A stretch of 64,000 nucleotides of DNA from Mesorhizobium sp. BR1-1-16 (GTDB lineage: Bacteria; Pseudomonadota; Alphaproteobacteria; Rhizobiales; Kaistiaceae), in the NCBI RefSeq assembly GCF_020165495.1, contig NZ_JAIUIE010000003.1, forward strand, positions 124,001-188,000, read 5' to 3'. Within the stretch, counting starts at the first letter, position 1; each line of letters opens with the position of its first letter. The notes under the pieces were generated by a model, which saw only the letters and a list, made by a program, of their open reading frames with translations, ran no database searches and was not told the origin of the DNA. The translations under genes and the position numbers were made by a program. Positions 50,318 to 59,602 of this stretch are shown piece after piece.

Positions 50318-51241
50318 CTAGCTGCCGCTCATGGCTGCGAGCAGTTGGCTCTCATTGTTCTGGAACATCTTCACATAGGTCGGGGCAGGCCCGTCCTTCG
50401 GCGAGAGAGCGTCGGAGAACAGCTCCCCGCCGACCTTGACGCTGCTTTCGCGGGCGATCTGGTCGATCAGGCGCGGATCGGTGATGTTCTCGACGAAGAT
50501 CGCCTGGATATGCTCGTCCTTCACCTGCCGCACGATCTTGGCGACATCAGCCGCCGAGACGTCGGCTTCGGTCGAAAGCCCTTCCGGCGCGATGAACTGG
50601 ATGTCATAGGCAGCGCCGAAATAGCCGAAGGCGTCATGGCTGGTCACGATGCGGCGCTTGGCCTCGGGCAGCTTCCCAAACTCGGCGGCCAGACGGTCAT
50701 GGATGGTGGTGAGCTGTTCGTTGAGCGCATCGCCATTGCGCCTGTAGTCGCTTGCGTGAGCCGGATCGGCAGCCGAGAACCCGGCGACGATGTTGTTCAC
50801 ATAGAGAATGCCGTTGCGCGGATCCTGCCATGCATGCGGATCGATCGCCTTGCCGTCGGCGTTCTTCTCCAGTTCCTCGGCCTCATCGGCATCGCCCTGC
50901 CAGAGGCGCGGCTCGACGCCCTTTGAGGCGATCACGGTTTCGCCCTTGAAATTGGAAGCGGCGACCAGGCGCTGCATCCAATGCTCGAGGCCGAGCCCGT
51001 TCTCGACCAGCACTGCGGCCTCGCCGAGCGCCTTGGCATTTTGAGGGCTCGGCTCGAAGGTGTGCGCATCGCCATTCGGCCCGACCAGCGTCGTAACGTC
51101 GACAAGGTCGCCGCCGACTTCGGAGGCGAGATCGCCGAGAACCGAGAAGCTCGCGACGACCTTCAGCTTTTCAGCCGCGAAGGCAGGACTGGAGAGCCCT
51201 GCCGCAAGCGCTGCGGCGAGGAGGACTTTGGTAATCCGCAT
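50318..51241 (-). CDS. Zinc/manganese ABC transporter periplasmic binding protein
   Basis: 307 residues. A signal peptide (VLLAAALAAGLSSPAFAAEK) precedes a ZnuA/cluster A-I fold. Probable metal ligands are the His residues in GDAHTFEPSP, IDPHAWQDP and VTSHDAFGYF, and an Asp near the end (GGELFSDAL). Instead of a His-rich loop it has an acidic loop, GDADEAEELEKNADG, so it resembles AztC-type zinc proteins more than ZnuA. Last gene of the importer operon. GGAG precedes the ATG. Confidence 0.88.
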   Translation of the reverse strand: MRITKVLLAAALAAGLSSPAFAAEKLKVVASFSVLGDLASEVGGDLVDVTTLVGPNGDAHTFEPSPQNAKALGEAAVLVENGLGLEHWMQRLVAASNFKGETVIASKGVEPRLWQGDADEAEELEKNADGKAIDPHAWQDPRNGILYVNNIVAGFSAADPAHASDYRRNGDALNEQLTTIHDRLAAEFGKLPEAKRRIVTSHDAFGYFGAAYDIQFIAPEGLSTEADVSAADVAKIVRQVKDEHIQAIFVENITDPRLIDQIARESSVKVGGELFSDALSPKDGPAPTYVKMFQNNESQLLAAMSGS

Positions 51242-51268
51242 GGATAGCTCCGTTGCAGGAAGAAGAAA

Positions 51269-52141
51269 CTAGCCCCTCAAATGCTGCGCTCGCAGCATCT
51301 GTCTCAGGAAACTGCCGTGCCGCCCCACCAGCAGCGACAGCGCATGGATGGCGCCGGCCGTCAGGATGATGGCGGGCGAGGTCGGCACGGCGACATGGTA
51401 GGAGACGACGAGACCGACATAGGACGAGACCACGGCGATCAGCGCGGATGCGATGATCTGACCGCCGATCGACTCGCTCCAGAAACGGCTGGATGCGGCC
51501 GGCAGGATGATCAGGCCAACCACCATCAGCGTCCCGAGCGCATTGAATCCGCCGACGAGATTGAGCACCACCAGCACCAGAAAGAGGAAATGCACGGCCC
51601 CGCCCGCGCCACCGACACTGCGCAGGAAGCCCGGATCGAAGCATTCCGCCACCAGCAGGCGGTAAACGAAAGCAAAGGCCAGGAACGTGACCGTCGCGAT
51701 CGAGGCGATCAGGTAGATCGCCGCATCGTCGAGCGCGAGCACATTGCCGAACAGCACATGCAGCAGGTCGACATTCGAGCCTTTCAGCGAGACGATCAGC
51801 ACACCGAGGCCGAGCGAGACCAGATAGAAGGACGCGAAACTCGCATCCTCCTTCAGCGGCGTGGTACGCGAGATGAACCCCGCCGCCAGCGCCACCGCAA
51901 GTCCGGCGACGACCCCGCCGAGCGTCATCGCGAACAGCGAGAAGCCCGAGAGCAGGAAGCCGATCGCCGCCCCGGGCAGGATGGCATGCGACATGACATC
52001 GCCCATCAGACTCATGCGCCGCAGCACCAGGAACACGCCGATCGGCGCTCCGGAAAGCGACAGCGCCAGGCAGCCGATCAGGGCACGCCGCATGAAGCCG
52101 AATTCGAGAAACGGCGCCACGAGCAGATTGAAGGTGGTCAT
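51269..52141 (-). CDS. Zinc/manganese ABC transporter permease
   Basis: 290 residues, about eight helices. ABC-3 family: FMRRALIGCLALSLSGAPIG, VLRRMSLMGDVMSHAILPGA, AIGFLLSGFSLFAMTLGGVV and ILPAASSRFWSESIGGQIIA. The ATG at 52141 overlaps the ATPase stop (ATGA). It forms the inner-membrane channel for the binding protein at 50318. Confidence 0.92.
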   Translation of the reverse strand: MTTFNLLVAPFLEFGFMRRALIGCLALSLSGAPIGVFLVLRRMSLMGDVMSHAILPGAAIGFLLSGFSLFAMTLGGVVAGLAVALAAGFISRTTPLKEDASFASFYLVSLGLGVLIVSLKGSNVDLLHVLFGNVLALDDAAIYLIASIATVTFLAFAFVYRLLVAECFDPGFLRSVGGAGGAVHFLFLVLVVLNLVGGFNALGTLMVVGLIILPAASSRFWSESIGGQIIASALIAVVSSYVGLVVSYHVAVPTSPAIILTAGAIHALSLLVGRHGSFLRQMLRAQHLRG

Positions 52142-52887
52142 GCTGCCGGACGCTCGCAAAGCTCGGCATCGCTATCGAACGCCTCGTCCAGCCCGCGCGA
52201 GCGGGCGATATTCGCCTCGGTCAGCACCTCGGAAGTCGGCCCCCACGCGATGGGGTCGCGGGCGATCAGCAGCGTCTTGGGAATGTGCTGCCGCACGGCA
52301 TTGAAATCGTGCAGGACGGCGATGATGGTCCGGCCTTCCCTGTGCCAGCGGCCGACCAGCCCCAAAAGTGCATCGGCCGTTCGCCCGTCGATCGCGGCGA
52401 AGGGTTCGTCGAGCAGGATCAACCGGGCATCCTGAAGCAGAAGCCGCGCAAACAGCGCGCGCTGGAACTGGCCGCCGGAAAGGCTGCCGACCATGCGCTC
52501 CTCAAAACCCGAAAGACCGACCGCGTCGAGCGCCGCCTCGACCTCCCGAAGCAGCGCGGCGCCGATGCGCCGAAACGGACCGGTCCGCCGCCAGAGGCCC
52601 ATCGCGGCAAGATCGAGGACCCGCATCGGAAAGCCGCGATCGAGCGCGGCCTGCTGCGGCAGATACGCGATATCGCTGCGGCGCGCGCCTGTCACCTCGA
52701 TCGATCCGCCATCCGGCCGGACCAATCCGACAATGCCCTTGAGCAGGGTCGACTTGCCAGCGCCATTGGGGCCGACGACAGCGGTGAAGGAGCCGGGCGC
52801 AAAGGTGCCGGTGAGATGGTGCACGGCCGGGTGACGCCGATAGGACAGCGTCAGGTCGCGGCAATGGATGGCGGGGGACGAAGCCAT
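52138..52887 (-). CDS. Zinc/manganese ABC transporter ATP-binding protein
   Basis: 249 residues. Walker A VVGPNGAGKSTLLKG, Q-loop IAYLPQQAALD, signature LSGGQFQRALFARLLLQ, Walker B LILLDEPFAAID and H-loop AVLHDFNAV. The ATG at 52887 (MASSPAIHCRD) is chosen; the open frame upstream to 53049 lies antisense to nothing recognisable and overlaps the small His-rich gene. It starts 4 bases after that gene's stop. Confidence 0.92.
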   Translation of the reverse strand: MASSPAIHCRDLTLSYRRHPAVHHLTGTFAPGSFTAVVGPNGAGKSTLLKGIVGLVRPDGGSIEVTGARRSDIAYLPQQAALDRGFPMRVLDLAAMGLWRRTGPFRRIGAALLREVEAALDAVGLSGFEERMVGSLSGGQFQRALFARLLLQDARLILLDEPFAAIDGRTADALLGLVGRWHREGRTIIAVLHDFNAVRQHIPKTLLIARDPIAWGPTSEVLTEANIARSRGLDEAFDSDAELCERPAA

Positions 52888-52891
52888 GATC

Positions 52892-53128
52892 TCAGCGCAC
52901 GGCCCAGAAGACGCCGATCCATACGAGACCGGCAAAGACGACGGCGAGACCGAGCCGATCGAGCACCGAGGCGAGGAACGGCGAAAACGTCTTGGCAGCC
53001 GCGTCGCTGTCATGCGCCTGAGAATGATTATGGGCATGATCGTGGTCACGATCCCCGCCAGCCTTCATCGCCGAACCAGCGGCAAAGCCGGTATTGCTTT
53101 CAATGGACAAGGCCTGCGGGCTCCGCAT
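52892..53128 (-). CDS. Small histidine-rich single-helix membrane protein in the zinc importer operon
   Basis: 78 residues from the ATG at 53128, or 58 from the ATG at 53068 (MKAGGDRDHDHAH). A histidine/aspartate-rich segment DRDHDHAHNHSQAHDSD is followed by one helix, LDRLGLAVVFAGLVWIGVFW, at the C-terminus. I do not recognise a named family. Its stop lies 4 bases before the ATPase start, so it is part of the importer operon. The His cluster suggests zinc binding near the membrane, on which side is unclear. Confidence 0.65.
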   Translation of the reverse strand: MRSPQALSIESNTGFAAGSAMKAGGDRDHDHAHNHSQAHDSDAAAKTFSPFLASVLDRLGLAVVFAGLVWIGVFWAVR

Positions 53129-53142
53129 CTCGCATCTGTTGC

Positions 53143-53160
53143 GATACGTTATGTTATATC
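53143..53160 (-). promoter_or_regulatory. Possible Zur-type metal box
   Basis: An AT-rich stretch (GATACGTTATGTTATATC) just upstream of the zinc operon in a GC-rich background, containing repeated TTAT steps and a partial dyad. Zinc importers of this type are usually controlled by Zur at such sites. The symmetry is poor, so this is only a candidate. Confidence 0.3.
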
Positions 53161-53209
53161 ATTTCACTTCGTGCAAGGCCCAATTCGCCGCACGGCGCTC
53201 AAGTCTAGA

Positions 53210-53226
53210 ATTGGAATAATTTCAAT
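53210..53226 (+). promoter_or_regulatory. Imperfect inverted repeat upstream of the imelysin operon
   Basis: ATTGGAA, three bases (TAA), TTTCAAT: 7-bp arms with one mismatch, AT-rich, about 85 bases before the imelysin start. The preceding TCTAGAATTGG recalls half of an iron-control (ICE/Irr) element. It could be the site through which iron status controls the operon; unproven. Confidence 0.35.
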
Positions 53227-53311
53227 CAGTTGGATATTCTTGACTCAGGCCTTCAACAAGGCCAAACGTGCCTCCGAGCCGTGTGCCGGCCAATCGATGG
53301 AGACGGGACTG

Positions 53312-54589
53312 ATGATCGGAAAGCTTCTTCTCGCCGCCTGCGCGGCTGCGGCCATCGCCGCGGCGACGCCGGCTTTCGCAGCCGACGGACCGACGCCTGA
53401 GGCCGTGCTGAAGACCTATGCCGACATTGCCGAGGCCAAGTATCAGGACTCGCTCGACGGCGCCGAGGCGCTCCGTGCCGCGGTCGGCGTCCTGATCGCC
53501 AATCCGTCTCCGGCGACACTGGCGCTTGCCCGCGATGCCTGGAAGGCCTCGCGCCCGGCCTATATGCAGGCCGAGGGCTATCGCTTCGCCAATACGGCGT
53601 CGGATGACCTCGACGGCGCAGTGAACGCCTGGCCGCTCGACGAAGGACTGATCGACTATGTCGACGCCAAGACCTATGGCGAAACGTCCGATTCCAATCC
53701 GCTCTATGCCGCCGACGTGATCGCCAACAAGCAGATCCAGATCGGTCCGGACAAGGTCGATGCCTCCACGATCACTCCCGAATTGCTGGCCAAGCTGCAG
53801 AGCGCGGGCGATGTCGAGGCGAATGTCGCGACCGGCTATCACGCCATCGAGTTCCTGCTCTGGGGCCAGGATCTCAACGGGACCGGACCGGGTGCCGGCA
53901 ATCGGCCCGCAACCGACTATGACGTCAAGAACTGCACGCATGGCAATTGCGATCGCCGCGCCGATTATCTCCGCGTCGCGACGGACATGCTGATCGCTGA
54001 CCTGCAGAAGGCAGTCGACGCCTGGCAGGTCGATGGTTCCGCCCGCAAGGAACTGGAAGCCAAGGGCGTCAATGGCGGTCTCGCGACGATCCTGACCGGC
54101 ATCGGCTCGCTCTCCTATGGCGAGCTTGCCGGCGAGCGCATGAAGCTCGGCCTGTTGCTGCATGATCCGGAGGAAGAGCACGATTGCTTCTCCGACAACA
54201 CGCATAACAGCCACTTCTTCGATGAGGTTGGCATCGTCTCGATCTGGAATGCCCGCTACACGCGTCCGGACGGCTCGCTCGTCGATGGCGCCAGCCTGCG
54301 CGATCTCGTCGCCGCGAAGAGCCCCGAAGCGGCAAAGCGCGTCGACGATGCCATGGCCGATGCGATGGCGAAGATGGGCGTCCTCAAGGCGACCGCGGAT
54401 TCGGGCGAGATGGCCTATGACCAGATGATCGGTGCCGGCAACGACAAGGGCAACAAGATCGTGCAGGACGCGATCGACGGCCTGGTCGCCCAGACACGGG
54501 CGCTGGAATCGGTCGTCGCGCTCCTCGGAGTCGAGGTCAAGGTCGAGGGGTCCGACAGCCTGGATAATCCCGACGCCGTCGAGAAGTAA
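53312..54589 (+). CDS. Imelysin family (peptidase M75-like) iron-regulated protein
   Basis: 425 residues. A signal peptide ends around ATPAFAADG. The GxHxxE motif is in TGYHAIEFLLWGQDL (about residue 176), with GPGAGNRPATDY, NTHNSHFFDEVGIVSIWNAR and a helical-bundle remainder. Imelysins (IrpA, ICMP, EfeO/Algp7 relatives) are periplasmic or outer-membrane proteins of iron uptake; peptidase activity is doubtful. The ATG at 53312 is chosen over 53297. First gene of a five-gene cluster and divergent from the zinc importer. Confidence 0.9.
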   Translation: MIGKLLLAACAAAAIAAATPAFAADGPTPEAVLKTYADIAEAKYQDSLDGAEALRAAVGVLIANPSPATLALARDAWKASRPAYMQAEGYRFANTASDDLDGAVNAWPLDEGLIDYVDAKTYGETSDSNPLYAADVIANKQIQIGPDKVDASTITPELLAKLQSAGDVEANVATGYHAIEFLLWGQDLNGTGPGAGNRPATDYDVKNCTHGNCDRRADYLRVATDMLIADLQKAVDAWQVDGSARKELEAKGVNGGLATILTGIGSLSYGELAGERMKLGLLLHDPEEEHDCFSDNTHNSHFFDEVGIVSIWNARYTRPDGSLVDGASLRDLVAAKSPEAAKRVDDAMADAMAKMGVLKATADSGEMAYDQMIGAGNDKGNKIVQDAIDGLVAQTRALESVVALLGVEVKVEGSDSLDNPDAVEK

Positions 54590-54710
54590 GCGGCAAGGAC
54601 GGCTCGCGACTGCCATGGCGACACGCCACATGGACGGGCTCCATCGCCGAGCCTAGAGACAGTTCCGGCCGCCGAACCCGGCGGCCGGACCTAGAAAGCG
54701 GACACAAGCG

Positions 54711-56168
54711 ATGCTCTCCCGCCGCTCCGTTCTCGTCGGTGCCGCCGCGCTCGCCGGCGCCGGGCTGTTCGGCCGCCCTGACGCGGCGCCCGCTTTCTCC
54801 CGCGCTTTGCCGCCGCCGCTGCCGCCTGGTCCCGAGACGACCGTTCGTCTCGATCTCACGGCGGCCGAGCGTCAGCTGGCCCTGCCCTGTTCGAACGGCC
54901 ACGCGCTCCCGCTCTGGACCTTCACCGATCAGGCCACGCCGCCGATCGTCCGCCTGAAGCTCGGCCAGCGGCTCGACACGCATTTGATCAATGGCCTCAC
55001 ACGGCCGGGCGAGCATGTCTCGATCCACTGGCATGGCATTCGCCTGCCGAACGACCAGGACGGCGTGCCCTATCTGGTGCAGCAGCCCGTCGAACCCGGC
55101 GAAAGCTACGACTATTCCTTCGTGCCGCCCGATCCCGGCACTTTCTTCTTCCACACCCATTGCAACACCGTCGAGCAGCTCGGCCGCGGCCTGATGGGCC
55201 TCTTGATCATCGAGGGCGACGAAACCGAGCCCTATGACGCCGAGCGCATTCTCGCGGTGCGCGACTGGCGGCTGAACCCCGATCGATCCGGCTTCCTGCC
55301 ATTCCTGACTTTGGAAGGCGCAGGCAAAGCCGGAACGTTCGGTACGGTGCGCAGCGTCAACGGCGCCAGCAATCCCGATATCGAAGTTCCCGCATCTGCC
55401 GATGTGCGGCTCCGCGTCCTCAATGTCGATCCGACCCGCGTGTCCGAGATCGGCTTTGACGGCGCAGATGCAGTGGTGGTTGCCATTGACGGCCTCGCCT
55501 GCCCGCCCTTCCCGCTGCGCTCCTGGAAAATGGGCCCGGCGATGCGGATCGATGTCGTGCTGCGCACGCCGGCCGATGGCGGCAGCGTGACGATGTTCGA
55601 CTATTTCGCGGCGTCGCCAGTGCCTCTGGCGAGGCTCGTCGCGCGCGGCCCCGCGATCCGAACCCAGCGCTTCGATCCCGCGCCTCTGGCCGCCGCCCGC
55701 ATCGCGCCACCAGACCTCGGCAAGGCCGAGCAGCAGCTTTTCACCTTTTCGGCGACCGCGACGGGTGCGGCGGTGGCGGACGCAGCGGGCGAAGATGGCG
55801 GCCCGCTTGGGCCGCTCTGCCTTTCGGCAGGCAGTCTCTGGGCGATCAACAAGCAGTCCTGGCCGGGTTCCGGCATGGACCGCCTGCCGCCGCCGATCGC
55901 GAGGTTCACACGCGGCACGACGTATCGCTGCACGCTCAAGAATGTGACGCCCCGCATGCACCCGATCCATGTGCATGGCCACAGCTTCACGGTGCTTCGC
56001 TCCAGCAAGCGGACGCTGCCGCCGCATTTTGCCGATACCGTGCTGCTGCTTCCGGAAGAGACGATCGAGGTCGCCTTCGTCGCCGACAATCCAGGGCGCT
56101 GGATGATGCATTGCCACATCATCGAGCATCAGGAGACCGGGATGATGGCCTGGTTCGAGGTTGCTTGA
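54711..56168 (+). CDS. Multicopper oxidase
   Basis: 485 residues. A twin-arginine-like start LSRRSVLVGAAALAGAGLFG suggests Tat export of a folded enzyme. The four copper-site motifs are present: VSIHWHGIRL (about residue 106), FFFHTHCNT (about 148), HPIHVHGHSF (about 417) and MMHCHIIEHQETGMM (about 466), with the axial Met. It resembles a laccase/CueO-like enzyme; a ferroxidase or cuprous oxidase role is possible. It lies between the first imelysin and the di-haem gene. Confidence 0.93.
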   Translation: MLSRRSVLVGAAALAGAGLFGRPDAAPAFSRALPPPLPPGPETTVRLDLTAAERQLALPCSNGHALPLWTFTDQATPPIVRLKLGQRLDTHLINGLTRPGEHVSIHWHGIRLPNDQDGVPYLVQQPVEPGESYDYSFVPPDPGTFFFHTHCNTVEQLGRGLMGLLIIEGDETEPYDAERILAVRDWRLNPDRSGFLPFLTLEGAGKAGTFGTVRSVNGASNPDIEVPASADVRLRVLNVDPTRVSEIGFDGADAVVVAIDGLACPPFPLRSWKMGPAMRIDVVLRTPADGGSVTMFDYFAASPVPLARLVARGPAIRTQRFDPAPLAAARIAPPDLGKAEQQLFTFSATATGAAVADAAGEDGGPLGPLCLSAGSLWAINKQSWPGSGMDRLPPPIARFTRGTTYRCTLKNVTPRMHPIHVHGHSFTVLRSSKRTLPPHFADTVLLLPEETIEVAFVADNPGRWMMHCHIIEHQETGMMAWFEVA

Positions 56169-56170
56169 AC

Positions 56171-57364
56171 ATGCGCCGGGGCCGCCTGCTGCTGGCAGCG
56201 CTTCTCGTGCTGCCCGGCTTCGCGCTGGCCGATGGGCTCGAGCGCGCGATGGGCAAGGCGCTGTTCGATCGCCAGTGGGTCGCCGCCCCGTCCTCGACCC
56301 TGGCCAATGACGGGCTCGGGCCACTCTTCACCGAGAAGGGCTGCATCACCTGCCACACCGGCAAGGCGTTCTCGGCTCGATTGCAGGCTGCACCTGATGG
56401 CACCGTCACGGCGCACGGTCTCACAACCCGGCTCGGCAATGCGGATGGCCGGCCCGATCCCGTCTATGGTCGGCAGATCCAGCCACGCTCCGTGCCCGGC
56501 CTCGAAAGCGAAGGCACGGTGACCTACCGCGCGCATGAAGGCCTCCCGATGGCGGTCTCCTTCGCGCCGGCTTTCGGAGCGCTCGCGCCGGGCACCCGGC
56601 TTGGTCCGCGTCTCGCGCCGCCGCTCGCCGGCATCGGGCGCATCGCCTTGGTGGACGAGACCGCGATCCTTGCGCGCGAGGACCCGGACGATCGGAATGG
56701 AGACGGCATTTCCGGCCATGCCCGCCGCCTCGCGGATGGCTCGATCGGACGCTATGGCTGGAAGGCATCGGCGGCGACGCTCGATCAGCAGGTTGCCGAT
56801 GCGTTCATGCTCGATATCGGCATGTCGAGCCCGCTCAGTCCCCATCCCTCAGGCGATTGCACGGCCGCCGAGGCGGCTTGCCGCGCGGCGCCGGATGGGC
56901 GCGATGCCAGCTTCGATGGCGAAGAGGTTTCGCAGCAAATGGTCGGCCTGATAACGGCCTATCTCGACGGGCTCGCCGCGCCGACCCCGCCGGCGACGGA
57001 CGATCCTGCATTGGCGCTGTTCGCCGCGACCGGCTGCGCGGCGTGCCATGTCCCCTCGCTGCCGCGAACCGGCGGCGGCACCGTCGCGCTCTATAGCGAC
57101 CTGCTGTTGCACGACATGGGACCGGACCTCGATGACGGCGTCGGCGAGCCTGGCGTGCGCTCGTCCGAATGGCGCACGGCGCCGCTGATCGCGCTTGCCC
57201 TTCGCCGCGATACCGAGACGCGCTATCTTCACGACGGCCGCGCCGCGACGGTGGACGCAGCGATCCGGGCGCATGGTGGCGAGGCGTCACGCGCCCGTGC
57301 CAATTACGGCGCATTATCGGCCGACGACCGCATGCGGCTGCTCTCTTTTCTGGACAGGCTATGA
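56171..57364 (+). CDS. Di-haem oxidoreductase (DUF1111) family protein
   Basis: 397 residues. Signal peptide LLLAALLVLPGFALADG. Two c-type haem motifs, CITCHT (about residue 58) and CAACHV (about 290), frame DUF1111 segments VYGRQIQPRSVPG, RLAPPLAGIGRIALVDE, DGISGHARRLADG and RYGWKASAATLDQQ, and the ending WRTAPLIALALRR, YLHDGRAATVDAAIRAHGGE. Periplasmic electron-transfer protein. The start is 2 bases after the oxidase stop; the next imelysin overlaps its stop. Its standard partners are imelysins, as here. Confidence 0.93.
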   Translation: MRRGRLLLAALLVLPGFALADGLERAMGKALFDRQWVAAPSSTLANDGLGPLFTEKGCITCHTGKAFSARLQAAPDGTVTAHGLTTRLGNADGRPDPVYGRQIQPRSVPGLESEGTVTYRAHEGLPMAVSFAPAFGALAPGTRLGPRLAPPLAGIGRIALVDETAILAREDPDDRNGDGISGHARRLADGSIGRYGWKASAATLDQQVADAFMLDIGMSSPLSPHPSGDCTAAEAACRAAPDGRDASFDGEEVSQQMVGLITAYLDGLAAPTPPATDDPALALFAATGCAACHVPSLPRTGGGTVALYSDLLLHDMGPDLDDGVGEPGVRSSEWRTAPLIALALRRDTETRYLHDGRAATVDAAIRAHGGEASRARANYGALSADDRMRLLSFLDRL

Positions 57365-58500
57365 TCGCGATTACCAAGAGGTTCCTGCTGCTTTCCCCAT
57401 TGGCGCTTATGGCGCGCAAGGCGTTCGCCGCCGCAACCGGGGAACCTCAGGACCTTGGGCCCGAACCGCCGGTGGTGACCGTTGCGCCGACGCCGCTGAC
57501 ACCGGACGCGCTCAATGCCGTCACCAGGCGGGCCGTCGAGGACTTCATCATACCGGCCTACAAGGATCTTGCCGCCGCGACCGCAAAGCTAGTCGCCGCA
57601 ATCGACGCGGCGGCACCTCAAGCCCCCGCCGCGCCGGACGACGCGACCCGCGCGGCGTTCTCGGCCGTCATTGCCGCCTTCGCCAAGGTCGATTTCCTGC
57701 GCTTCGGCCCTATGGCCGAGCAGGGCCGGCTCGAGAAGTTTTCCTATTATCCGGACCGGCACGGCACGGGTGCGCGCCAGCTCCGCCGCATGCTTGCGAC
57801 CCCCGATCCGACCCAGCTGGAACCGGGGGCAGTGGCAAAGCTATCCGCCGCCGTGCAGGGCCTGCCCGCGCTGGAGAGCCTCATCTTCACGGCCGATAGC
57901 GACGCCGAGACCCGTGACTATCGATGGCGCCTCGCGGCTGCCATCGCAGGCAATCTCGACCAGATCGCGCGCGACACGCTCGACGGCTGGACGAAGCCGG
58001 GCGGCTGGCAGGCGCTGATGGAACAGCCAGGCGGCAGCAATATCGTCTATCGCGACGCCGAGGAGCCGGTGATCGAAATCCTGAAAGCGATCACCACCGG
58101 CCTGCTGCAGATCCGCGACCAGCGCATGCTGCCGGCACTCGGCGAAGACTTCGCCGCCGCCAAGCCGAACCGCGCCGCCTTCGTCGCCTCCGGCAATGCG
58201 CTCGCCTATCTGGCAGCTTCGGGCGCCGCGATCGAGGAAATCGCCCGCGCGGCTGATCTCTTCAGCCTGACGCCGACAGAGGCGCCAAAGCTCGGCGCCG
58301 CGAGCAGCGCCGGTTTCGCGGCTTATCGCGCCGGCATCACCGCGAGTCCCTCCTGGCAGGCGGCCTTTGCGAATGCCGCCAGCTACAAGCACCTGCGGGA
58401 CGCCTTCGACGCCCTGAAGGCGCTGGAGGACCTCTACAGTTTCCGCTTCCCCGCCGAGGCCGGCATCTCGCCCGGCTTCAATGCCCTTGACGGCGACTGA
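57361..58500 (+). CDS. Second imelysin family protein
   Basis: 379 residues. Signal peptide LLLSPLALMARKAFAAATG. Imelysin features are DFIIPAYKDLAAATAKLVAA, VDFLRFGPMAEQGRLEKFSY and YPDRHGTGARQLRRML, but the GxHxxE motif of the first imelysin is not present; this is normal for the second copy in such operons. The ATG overlaps the di-haem gene stop. It is probably exported and works with the other products. Confidence 0.87.
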   Translation: MIAITKRFLLLSPLALMARKAFAAATGEPQDLGPEPPVVTVAPTPLTPDALNAVTRRAVEDFIIPAYKDLAAATAKLVAAIDAAAPQAPAAPDDATRAAFSAVIAAFAKVDFLRFGPMAEQGRLEKFSYYPDRHGTGARQLRRMLATPDPTQLEPGAVAKLSAAVQGLPALESLIFTADSDAETRDYRWRLAAAIAGNLDQIARDTLDGWTKPGGWQALMEQPGGSNIVYRDAEEPVIEILKAITTGLLQIRDQRMLPALGEDFAAAKPNRAAFVASGNALAYLAASGAAIEEIARAADLFSLTPTEAPKLGAASSAGFAAYRAGITASPSWQAAFANAASYKHLRDAFDALKALEDLYSFRFPAEAGISPGFNALDGD

Positions 58501-58501
58501 G

Positions 58502-59602
58502 ATGGCACAGCTGTTCCGCCGGATGCGCGAAGGTCTTGCCGCGGTGCTCGGCTTCGAGACGGAGTCCGGCGTCGCGGAACACGCTGTCTTCCTGAGTTCC
58601 GTCCGCGTCGGCCCGCGCCAGCATGCCTTGCTTCTCATCGACGAGCACGGCCGCGAGATCGGCCGCATGCCGCTCGCTGGTCGCGGCCATGACATTGCGG
58701 TCGACGCCGCCCATCATCGCGTCGCCGTCTTCGCGAGGCGCCCTGGTTATTTCGCCGTCGTCGTCGATGGGCGCAACCTGACCCCGCTCGCCACCATCCG
58801 CCCGCCCGAGGGTCATCATTTTTTCGGCCACGGCGCATTTTCGGCCGACGGACGTCTGCTCTACACGACAGAGAATGTCTTCACCGGTGAGCAGCCGCGC
58901 GGCGTGATCGGTGTCTATGACGCATCCGGCGGCTATGGCCGGATCGGCGAATTCGAAACGCACGGCATGGATTCGCATGAAATCCTGCTGGCGCCCGATG
59001 GCCGCACGCTGGTTGTCGCCAATGGCGGCATCGAGACCCATCCGGAGTTCGGCCGTCAGAAGCTCAATGTTGCGGATATGCGGCCCTCGATCGTGCGCAT
59101 CGACAGCGCGTCCGGCGAACTCCAGGGCGAGACGCGGCTCGAGGCGGGGCTCAACCAGCTTTCGACGCGGCACATGGCCTTCGACGGCAGCGGCGCGCTC
59201 TGGTTCGGCTGCCAATGGGAGGGCGAGAAGGGCCGTCGCCCGCCGCTGGTCGGACGGATCGATGCCGACGGCGAGGCGCTGCTCCTGCCCTTCCCGGACG
59301 CCGTCGCACCGCTCGCCCGCAACTATATCGGATCGGTGGTGGCGAGCCGCGACGGAACGGCGATCGCGGCCTCCTCGCCGATCGGCGGAACGGTCTTCGT
59401 GTTCGACGCCGCTCGAAAGGCGCTGCACGCCGCGCATACCCTTCGCGACGGCTGCGGCCTTGCCGGAGCCACGGATGCAGGTTTTCTGGCGAGCGCCGGC
59501 GATGGCCGCCTGATGCGGGTTGCTGGCGAGACGATCGAGCCGATCACGCGAGTCGGCGCTGTCGAATTCGACAATCACATGCGACGCATCGATCTCGCCT
59601 GA
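58502..59602 (+). CDS. DUF1513 domain-containing protein
   Basis: 366 residues. A beta-propeller-like protein: GRGHDIAVDAAHHRVAVFAR, GHHFFGHGAFSADGRLLYTT, FETHGMDSHEILLAPDGRTL, VVANGGIETHPEFGRQKLN and FDNHMRRIDLA are DUF1513 features. The ATG at 58502, one base after the imelysin stop, is chosen; an ATG at 58481 overlaps the upstream gene. I see no clear signal peptide from either start. Function unknown; always seen with imelysin/DUF1111 genes. Confidence 0.9.
   Translation: MAQLFRRMREGLAAVLGFETESGVAEHAVFLSSVRVGPRQHALLLIDEHGREIGRMPLAGRGHDIAVDAAHHRVAVFARRPGYFAVVVDGRNLTPLATIRPPEGHHFFGHGAFSADGRLLYTTENVFTGEQPRGVIGVYDASGGYGRIGEFETHGMDSHEILLAPDGRTLVVANGGIETHPEFGRQKLNVADMRPSIVRIDSASGELQGETRLEAGLNQLSTRHMAFDGSGALWFGCQWEGEKGRRPPLVGRIDADGEALLLPFPDAVAPLARNYIGSVVASRDGTAIAASSPIGGTVFVFDAARKALHAAHTLRDGCGLAGATDAGFLASAGDGRLMRVAGETIEPITRVGAVEFDNHMRRIDLA

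Follow-up and report, generated by a model that had tools for sequence, protein, structure and literature searches.

Gene layout of the imelysin locus

The window, a stretch of 64,000 nucleotides from Mesorhizobium sp. BR1-1-16 (contig NZ_JAIUIE010000003.1, positions 124,001 to 188,000), contains five genes on the forward strand (53312-59602 of the window) in which a multicopper oxidase gene lies between an imelysin gene and the gene of a di-haem protein. The gene set and its order had been described in an earlier note on this DNA; the set was present where that note had placed it, and each of the five genes had a Pfam match. Imelysin 1, of the IrpA/ICMP type (53312-54589, +), has a Sec-type signal and the motif GYHAIE, which corresponds to GxHxxE. 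It matched PF09375 (Peptidase_M75) with 8e-76, and its closest solved chain was 7xrx, an insulin-cleaving metalloproteinase (4.5e-111). The three-domain multicopper oxidase (54711-56168, +) is followed by a DUF1111/DHOR di-haem protein in a shortened form (56171-57364, +; Pfam 3.8e-36), which contains two CXXCH motifs 231 residues apart. Imelysin 2, of the IPPA type (57361-58500, +), carries the variant motif GLPALE (GxxxxE) and matched Pfam Peptidase_M75 with 5.8e-29 and the solved chain 3pf0 with 2.6e-9. The last gene encodes a DUF1513 protein (58481-59602, +; Pfam 5.1e-101), the true start of which could lie downstream of 58481.

The oxidase starts with MLSRRSVL, a Tat-type N-terminus, and this as well as its position between the first imelysin and the di-haem gene agreed with the earlier description. 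It contains three Pfam Cu-oxidase domains and complete copper-ligand motifs; all four histidine motifs, HWHG, HTH, HPIHVHGH and HCHIIEHQETGMM, were present. The same four motifs, with minor variants, occurred in the 35 in-cluster oxidase relatives compared. The nearest solved chains were 6vow and 6vox, and the closest named organism was Kaistia soli, the oxidase of which is 94% identical.

The oxidase and DHOR genes are separated by 2 bp, the DHOR and imelysin 2 genes overlap by 4 bp, and the imelysin 2 and DUF1513 genes overlap by 20 bp. This tight spacing is in line with the single transcript that had been proposed, and the genes from the oxidase through DUF1513 likely form one. That imelysin 1 belongs to the same transcript is less certain; it may be partly uncoupled, because a gap of 121 bp with a GC-rich hairpin lacking a U tract (54664-54689, +) precedes the oxidase gene. 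The terminator scan listed none in this gap, and the hairpin is a possible processing or stabilising element. Most clusters encode a DUF1513 protein with a Tat-type N-terminus, while no signal was evident in most Kaistia loci, including the window, or in locus L079; in all of these loci without a signal the protein may be cytoplasmic.

Distribution of the oxidase and shortening of the di-haem protein

Matches to DUF1513 were found in 37 of 240 genomes of the class sample and in 40 of 200 genomes of the phylum sample, giving 66 neighbourhoods. Imelysin 1, DHOR, imelysin 2 and DUF1513 occurred in this order in 64 of them (L096 had no imelysin 1 in the stretch), which bears out the description of these genes as a recurring set. 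An oxidase occupied the slot between imelysin 1 and the di-haem gene in three of the 64 clusters. In the order to which the window belongs, 147 of 297 genomes had a DUF1513 match, and in 26 of these 147 an oxidase lay 2.4-2.8 kb upstream on the same contig; this count was joined by hand from two tables, and G637, with two contigs, was not counted. Because the gene order and the distance between oxidase and DUF1513 were kept in these 26 genomes, which span nine family codes, the arrangement is not due to chance. All 14 genomes of the genus contained both the oxidase and DUF1513, on one contig in 13 cases, while G444 was fragmented.

A scan for the oxidase gave 47 named loci. In 31 of them the genes were arranged as in the window, with the oxidase flanked by imelysin 1 and the di-haem gene. 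Two had the oxidase divergently beside the cluster, and in the other 14 no complete cluster was found around the oxidase; one of these (L044) was cut at a contig end behind imelysin 1. Loci L042 and L044 (contig end) and L049 (a Treponema outlier) were left out of the oxidase comparisons. The two loci with a divergent oxidase (L046 and L047) were not counted as in-cluster, except among the 37 loci of the Fur-box scan. In both, which are from Novispirillum, the di-haem protein of the core cluster is full-length and the divergent oxidase beside the cluster is more distant; this is possibly an intermediate or an independent association.

In an imelysin 1 tree of 117 proteins the presence of the oxidase required two changes, which can be read as one gain and one loss (L079). 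A smaller tree of 97 rows, in which L046 and L047 were counted as oxidase loci, required five. The larger tree was calculated without L096 (imelysin 1 not found), L119 (cut), L132 (treated as a near-copy of L017) and L124, L144 and L148, which are the same loci as L009, L010 and L027. The oxidase is an old shared trait of one clade and not a one-off insertion. The comparison of clusters with and without it showed the same slot and order in relatives, so that the oxidase is neither absent from related clusters nor the local novelty suggested when it was first called inserted. In BAL199 imelysin 1 and the oxidase are separated by a gene for a DUF2325 protein (L028:8737-9963), which adds a third kind of gene to those seen in this slot.

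In the oxidase clusters the di-haem protein is shortened, although both CXXCH motifs are retained. The two haem motifs were 206-251 residues apart in the 44 oxidase clusters measured, apart from a single outlier of 268, as compared to 246-273 residues in 73 others; a spacing of 243 or less occurred in 38 of the 44 and in none of the 73. A loop of 14 alignment columns after haem 1 was missing in most of the oxidase-cluster proteins. The 61 core relatives that were compared have a full-length di-haem protein, unlike the window, and all 61 carry R108 and W449 (WHGGEA motif; all residue numbers are alignment columns). In the oxidase clusters R108 was kept in 4 of 35 and W449 in 11 of 35, and two further core-invariant residues, W420 and P387, were kept in 10 and 8 of 35, respectively. 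This loss was graded, being less advanced in the early-branching Dongia group, Azospirillum, L067 and L080 than in Kaistia and Hyphomicrobium. Two comparable operon types exist within one bacterial family: under the family code of the window, all seven measured clusters without an oxidase had a spacing of 250-265 and the WHGG motif, while all ten Kaistia-type oxidase clusters had a spacing of 230-236 and no WHGG motif. Trimming was judged by haem spacing and alignment columns; a regular expression for the N-terminal segment was too noisy (4 and 15 exceptions) and was not used.

An AlphaFold model of the di-haem protein from the window (pLDDT 88) weakly resembled MauG and bCcP. The best fold match was MauG (E 7e-5), and 6e1c, a MauG-like copper-homeostasis protein, followed lower down. 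When the protein was compared with solved structures by sequence, one search returned nothing and another only cytochrome-level matches. The model of the full-length di-haem protein of L047 (pLDDT 73) was too weak to show where the lost residues lie with respect to the haems, and no role is therefore claimed for them. A second DUF1111 gene was observed beside the cluster in L118 (2229-3740, -; divergent) and in L108 (4232-7438; tandem).

In the oxidase tree most of the non-cluster oxidases branch from within those of the clusters. Fifteen distinct non-cluster oxidases remained after exclusion of the repeat copies L125, L126, L127, L129, L130, L134, L135 and L136 and of L133, a second oxidase of G447 (38% identical). 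Ten of the 15 (L012-L016, L019, L045, L128, L131 and L138) adjoin a protein in which about 142 residues separate two CXXCH motifs; it was a cytochrome c in the six cases tested with Pfam. This neighbour is located upstream in some loci and downstream in others; the order was thus rearranged while the link between oxidase and cytochrome stayed.

Probable iron control and known systems

Iron control appears well supported by the promoters and slot genes of relatives, and the evidence is weaker for the window itself. Sites that resemble a Fur box at 15-17 of 19 positions are located ahead of imelysin 1 in four oxidase clusters (L036, L039, L040 and L041) and also in several core clusters; the L040 cluster in addition adjoins HmuQ and a FecCD permease. 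Fur boxes with a shuffle p below 0.02 were found in 6 of 37 oxidase loci and in 10 of 59 core loci. In all seven g208 loci a perfect Irr box (ICE) is present before imelysin 1, and the slot that contains the oxidase in Kaistia holds a Bfd-like protein in all seven and a bacterioferritin in five; the Bfr of L097 was identified by NCBIfam. The Bfd-like protein, which had no Pfam or NCBIfam match in L097, we take to be the bacterioferritin-associated ferredoxin.

The window contains a degenerate Irr/ICE-like box, ATTGGAATAATTTCAAT (53210-53226, +), which is conserved in place in Kaistia-type promoters and was equalled by 8 of 300 shuffles. In each of the 11 Kaistia-type promoter regions examined the best ICE-like match had a similar location, and no more than 8 of 300 shuffles did as well. 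The source genome encodes Irr, with a score above both NCBIfam cut-offs, and also Fur/Mur-like and Zur-like proteins, which scored below cut-off. Judged from these sites, the window copy is probably regulated by Irr. The best candidate for a canonical Fur box in the window (13 of 19 positions at -277, shuffle p 0.02) was not convincing. A possible promoter, TTGGAA-18-TATTCT (53211-53240, +), was drawn by hand with 8 of 12 consensus matches and was not among the results of the promoter scan. In most Kaistia-type loci a Cys-rich protein of about 166 residues (L004:8058-8558; also in L005-L009 and L027) is encoded between the ICE-like promoter and imelysin 1; the L004 copy belonged to no Pfam or NCBIfam family, and the window, L003 and L017 lack the gene.

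The four-gene core is known from PA4370-4373 and from the Rhodobacter genes hemP-irpA-bfd-bfr-RSP_1545-1543. PA4370-PA4373 of Pseudomonas aeruginosa and VC1264-VC1266 are described as Fur-regulated imelysin operons in the available part of Xu et al. 2011 (PMC3143127). The Pseudomonas operon resembles the window in its two imelysins, of the GxHxxE and GxxxxE types, and its DUF1111 di-haem protein, but the same part of that source mentions no multicopper oxidase (PMC3143127). It also does not contain the name DUF1513 (PMC3143127), the core membership of which comes from the neighbourhoods analysed here. In Rhodobacter sphaeroides irpA, bfd and bfr are induced by iron limitation (PMC3413700), and RSP_1545-1543 are cotranscribed with hemP-irpA-bfd-bfr (PMC4618611), as far as the available parts of the two sources go. 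Within the same parts (PMC3413700, PMC4618611), the Rhodobacter genes share with the window an imelysin-type irpA, a di-haem "thiol oxidoreductase" with two further genes behind it, and an extra gene block in the same slot between imelysin 1 and DHOR; they differ in that the slot contains bacterioferritin and its ferredoxin and that control is exerted by IscR at an Iron-Rhodo-box. The iron role suggested by the earlier note thus gained support from the Fur and Irr boxes of relatives, from Bfd and Bfr in the slot and from the published iron induction in Rhodobacter, while the window itself contributes a degenerate box only.

The available part of PMC9174327 describes EfeM as an M75 protein with metal sites; EfeUOB/EfeM resembles the window in combining an imelysin-type periplasmic M75 protein with a redox enzyme, and the yeast Fet3p-Ftr1p system in linking a multicopper oxidase to iron. 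Imelysin 1 of the window differs from EfeUOB in consisting of M75 only, with no cupredoxin domain, and the cluster contains no DyP peroxidase. No match to the FTR1/EfeU permease was found in the whole source genome, which ruled out membership in Fet3-Ftr1 or EfeUOB. A further difference from Fet3p-Ftr1p is that the electrons may arrive via the di-haem protein. MauG, bCcP and MbnH share two c-type haems with the di-haem protein and were the best fold matches of its model, but sequence similarity was negligible, TM scores were low and no substrate protein is known. No account of the oxidase-bearing variant was found in the literature searched, which covered few subscription journals. The trimmed di-haem protein of the oxidase clusters and the location of non-cluster oxidases next to another di-haem cytochrome c are new.

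Proposed role of the oxidase and alternative explanations

The oxidase is probably the redox partner of the di-haem protein and not a stray insertion, because many alphaproteobacteria share the gene order and the di-haem protein was reshaped alongside. That the genes form an iron-responsive operon with the oxidase as an integral redox member seems likely. The best explanation overall, to which we would give slightly less than an even chance, is an oxygen-linked variant of the iron-starvation imelysin operon. Iron shortage would derepress the operon, in this lineage probably via Irr. Outside the cytoplasm both imelysins would hold iron, or a ligand that carries it, and the DUF1111 protein would take electrons from that substrate, most simply by oxidising Fe(II) to Fe(III), and hand them to the multicopper oxidase, which would reduce O2 to water. 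The ancestral operon of four genes would rely on a different oxidant for its di-haem protein, e.g. H2O2. We infer the electron flow, Fe(II) as its source, O2 as its acceptor and the role of the imelysins, and the complete path is doubtful. It is rather unlikely, though conceivable, that the terminal oxidant was exchanged in one clade, turning a di-haem peroxidase into an electron carrier feeding the oxidase, and that oxidases which later departed from the cluster gained another di-haem cytochrome c instead. If true, the system would represent a periplasmic copper oxidase that is driven by a c-type cytochrome and acts on iron. Among Pseudomonadota the imelysin/DUF1111/DUF1513 set occurs commonly, and it is regulated by iron; gain of the oxidase together with a reshaped di-haem protein narrows the question of its mechanism to redox chemistry and predicts electron disposal as the role of the di-haem protein.

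Several observations weigh against the oxygen-linked reading. The association of oxidase and trimming goes back to essentially one origin, and an attempt at statistical proof of co-change failed: as the oxidase was gained essentially once, only two independent pairs exist, too few to reach significance. Partial trimming occurs without an oxidase in locus L079, L145 combines an oxidase with a spacing of 268, and the early-branching loci L036, L039, L040, L041 and L080 retain spacings of 249-251. Five of the 15 non-cluster oxidases (L011, L030, L035, L137 and L037) have no cytochrome neighbour, and the ten that have one are not ten independent cases, because seven of them form one fully supported clade. 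The TM score of the di-haem model against MauG was only 0.41, which is weak. No Fur box was found in most oxidase loci in the scan described above, and the ICE-like box of the window differs at 5 of 17 positions from the perfect ICE of the g208 loci. The literature searched yielded no activity, metal or expression result for oxidase-bearing clusters.

The oxidase could instead act as a plain ferroxidase for uptake, oxidising periplasmic Fe(II) itself as Fet3p does and passing Fe(III) to the imelysins for import, while the di-haem protein would only remove peroxide. The iron-type regulation of relatives, the full set of copper-ligand motifs and the bacterioferritin in the same slot of five of the seven g208 loci are consistent with this, and bacterioferritin is itself a ferroxidase. 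However, neither a transporter in the cluster nor FTR1 in the genome was found, a result that also leaves the uptake across the membrane proposed in the earlier note unsupported, and the altered di-haem protein and the cytochrome c neighbours of non-cluster oxidases would be left unexplained; on balance uptake of this kind is unlikely. Copper detoxification, also part of the earlier proposal, would make the oxidase a periplasmic cuprous oxidase that substitutes for CueO in copper tolerance and is only carried along in an iron operon. Copper detoxification is frequent among the Tat-exported oxidases of this superfamily. The oxidase scored far below the NCBIfam cut-offs of CueO (109.6 versus 525) and CopA (142.7 versus 478.95), contains about 1% methionine in the window by a crude count where CueO is rich, and is conserved in position in an iron-type operon. 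On the low scores and the iron-type context copper detoxification was dropped as the leading explanation; it was kept as an improbable alternative because the oxidase was the only PF07732 protein found in the source genome and may handle copper as a second role.

The fold matches of the di-haem model to MauG and 6e1c, and the two imelysins as near-constant neighbours, could also point to cofactor or residue maturation, in which the di-haem protein would act on an imelysin like MauG or MbnH and the oxidase would supply or drain oxidising equivalents. These matches are weak, with TM scores of 0.41 or less, no modified residue is known, and trimming together with the loss of otherwise invariant residues in the clade argues against a conserved precise chemistry, which makes maturation quite improbable. 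Finally, the oxidase may have been captured once as a neutral passenger with no functional tie to its neighbours. Its essentially single origin and the existence of oxidases outside clusters would fit, but the same slot and intact ligand motifs across nine family codes, the 2-bp spacing to the di-haem gene in the window and the di-haem neighbour at 10 of 15 non-cluster loci leave this with hardly any likelihood compared to the oxygen-linked operon.

An AztABC-like zinc ABC transporter (50318-52887, -), which scored below the AztA, AztB and AztC cut-offs, is the divergent neighbour of the cluster. A zinc role via this transporter was considered and rejected; the transporter was observed in Kaistia-type loci alone and is therefore regarded as a neighbour. 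What we take to be a Zur-like box (53143-53161) lies near the transporter and is not claimed as part of the imelysin system. The transporter is preceded by an open reading frame for a His-rich protein of 58 residues with one helix (52892-53068, -).

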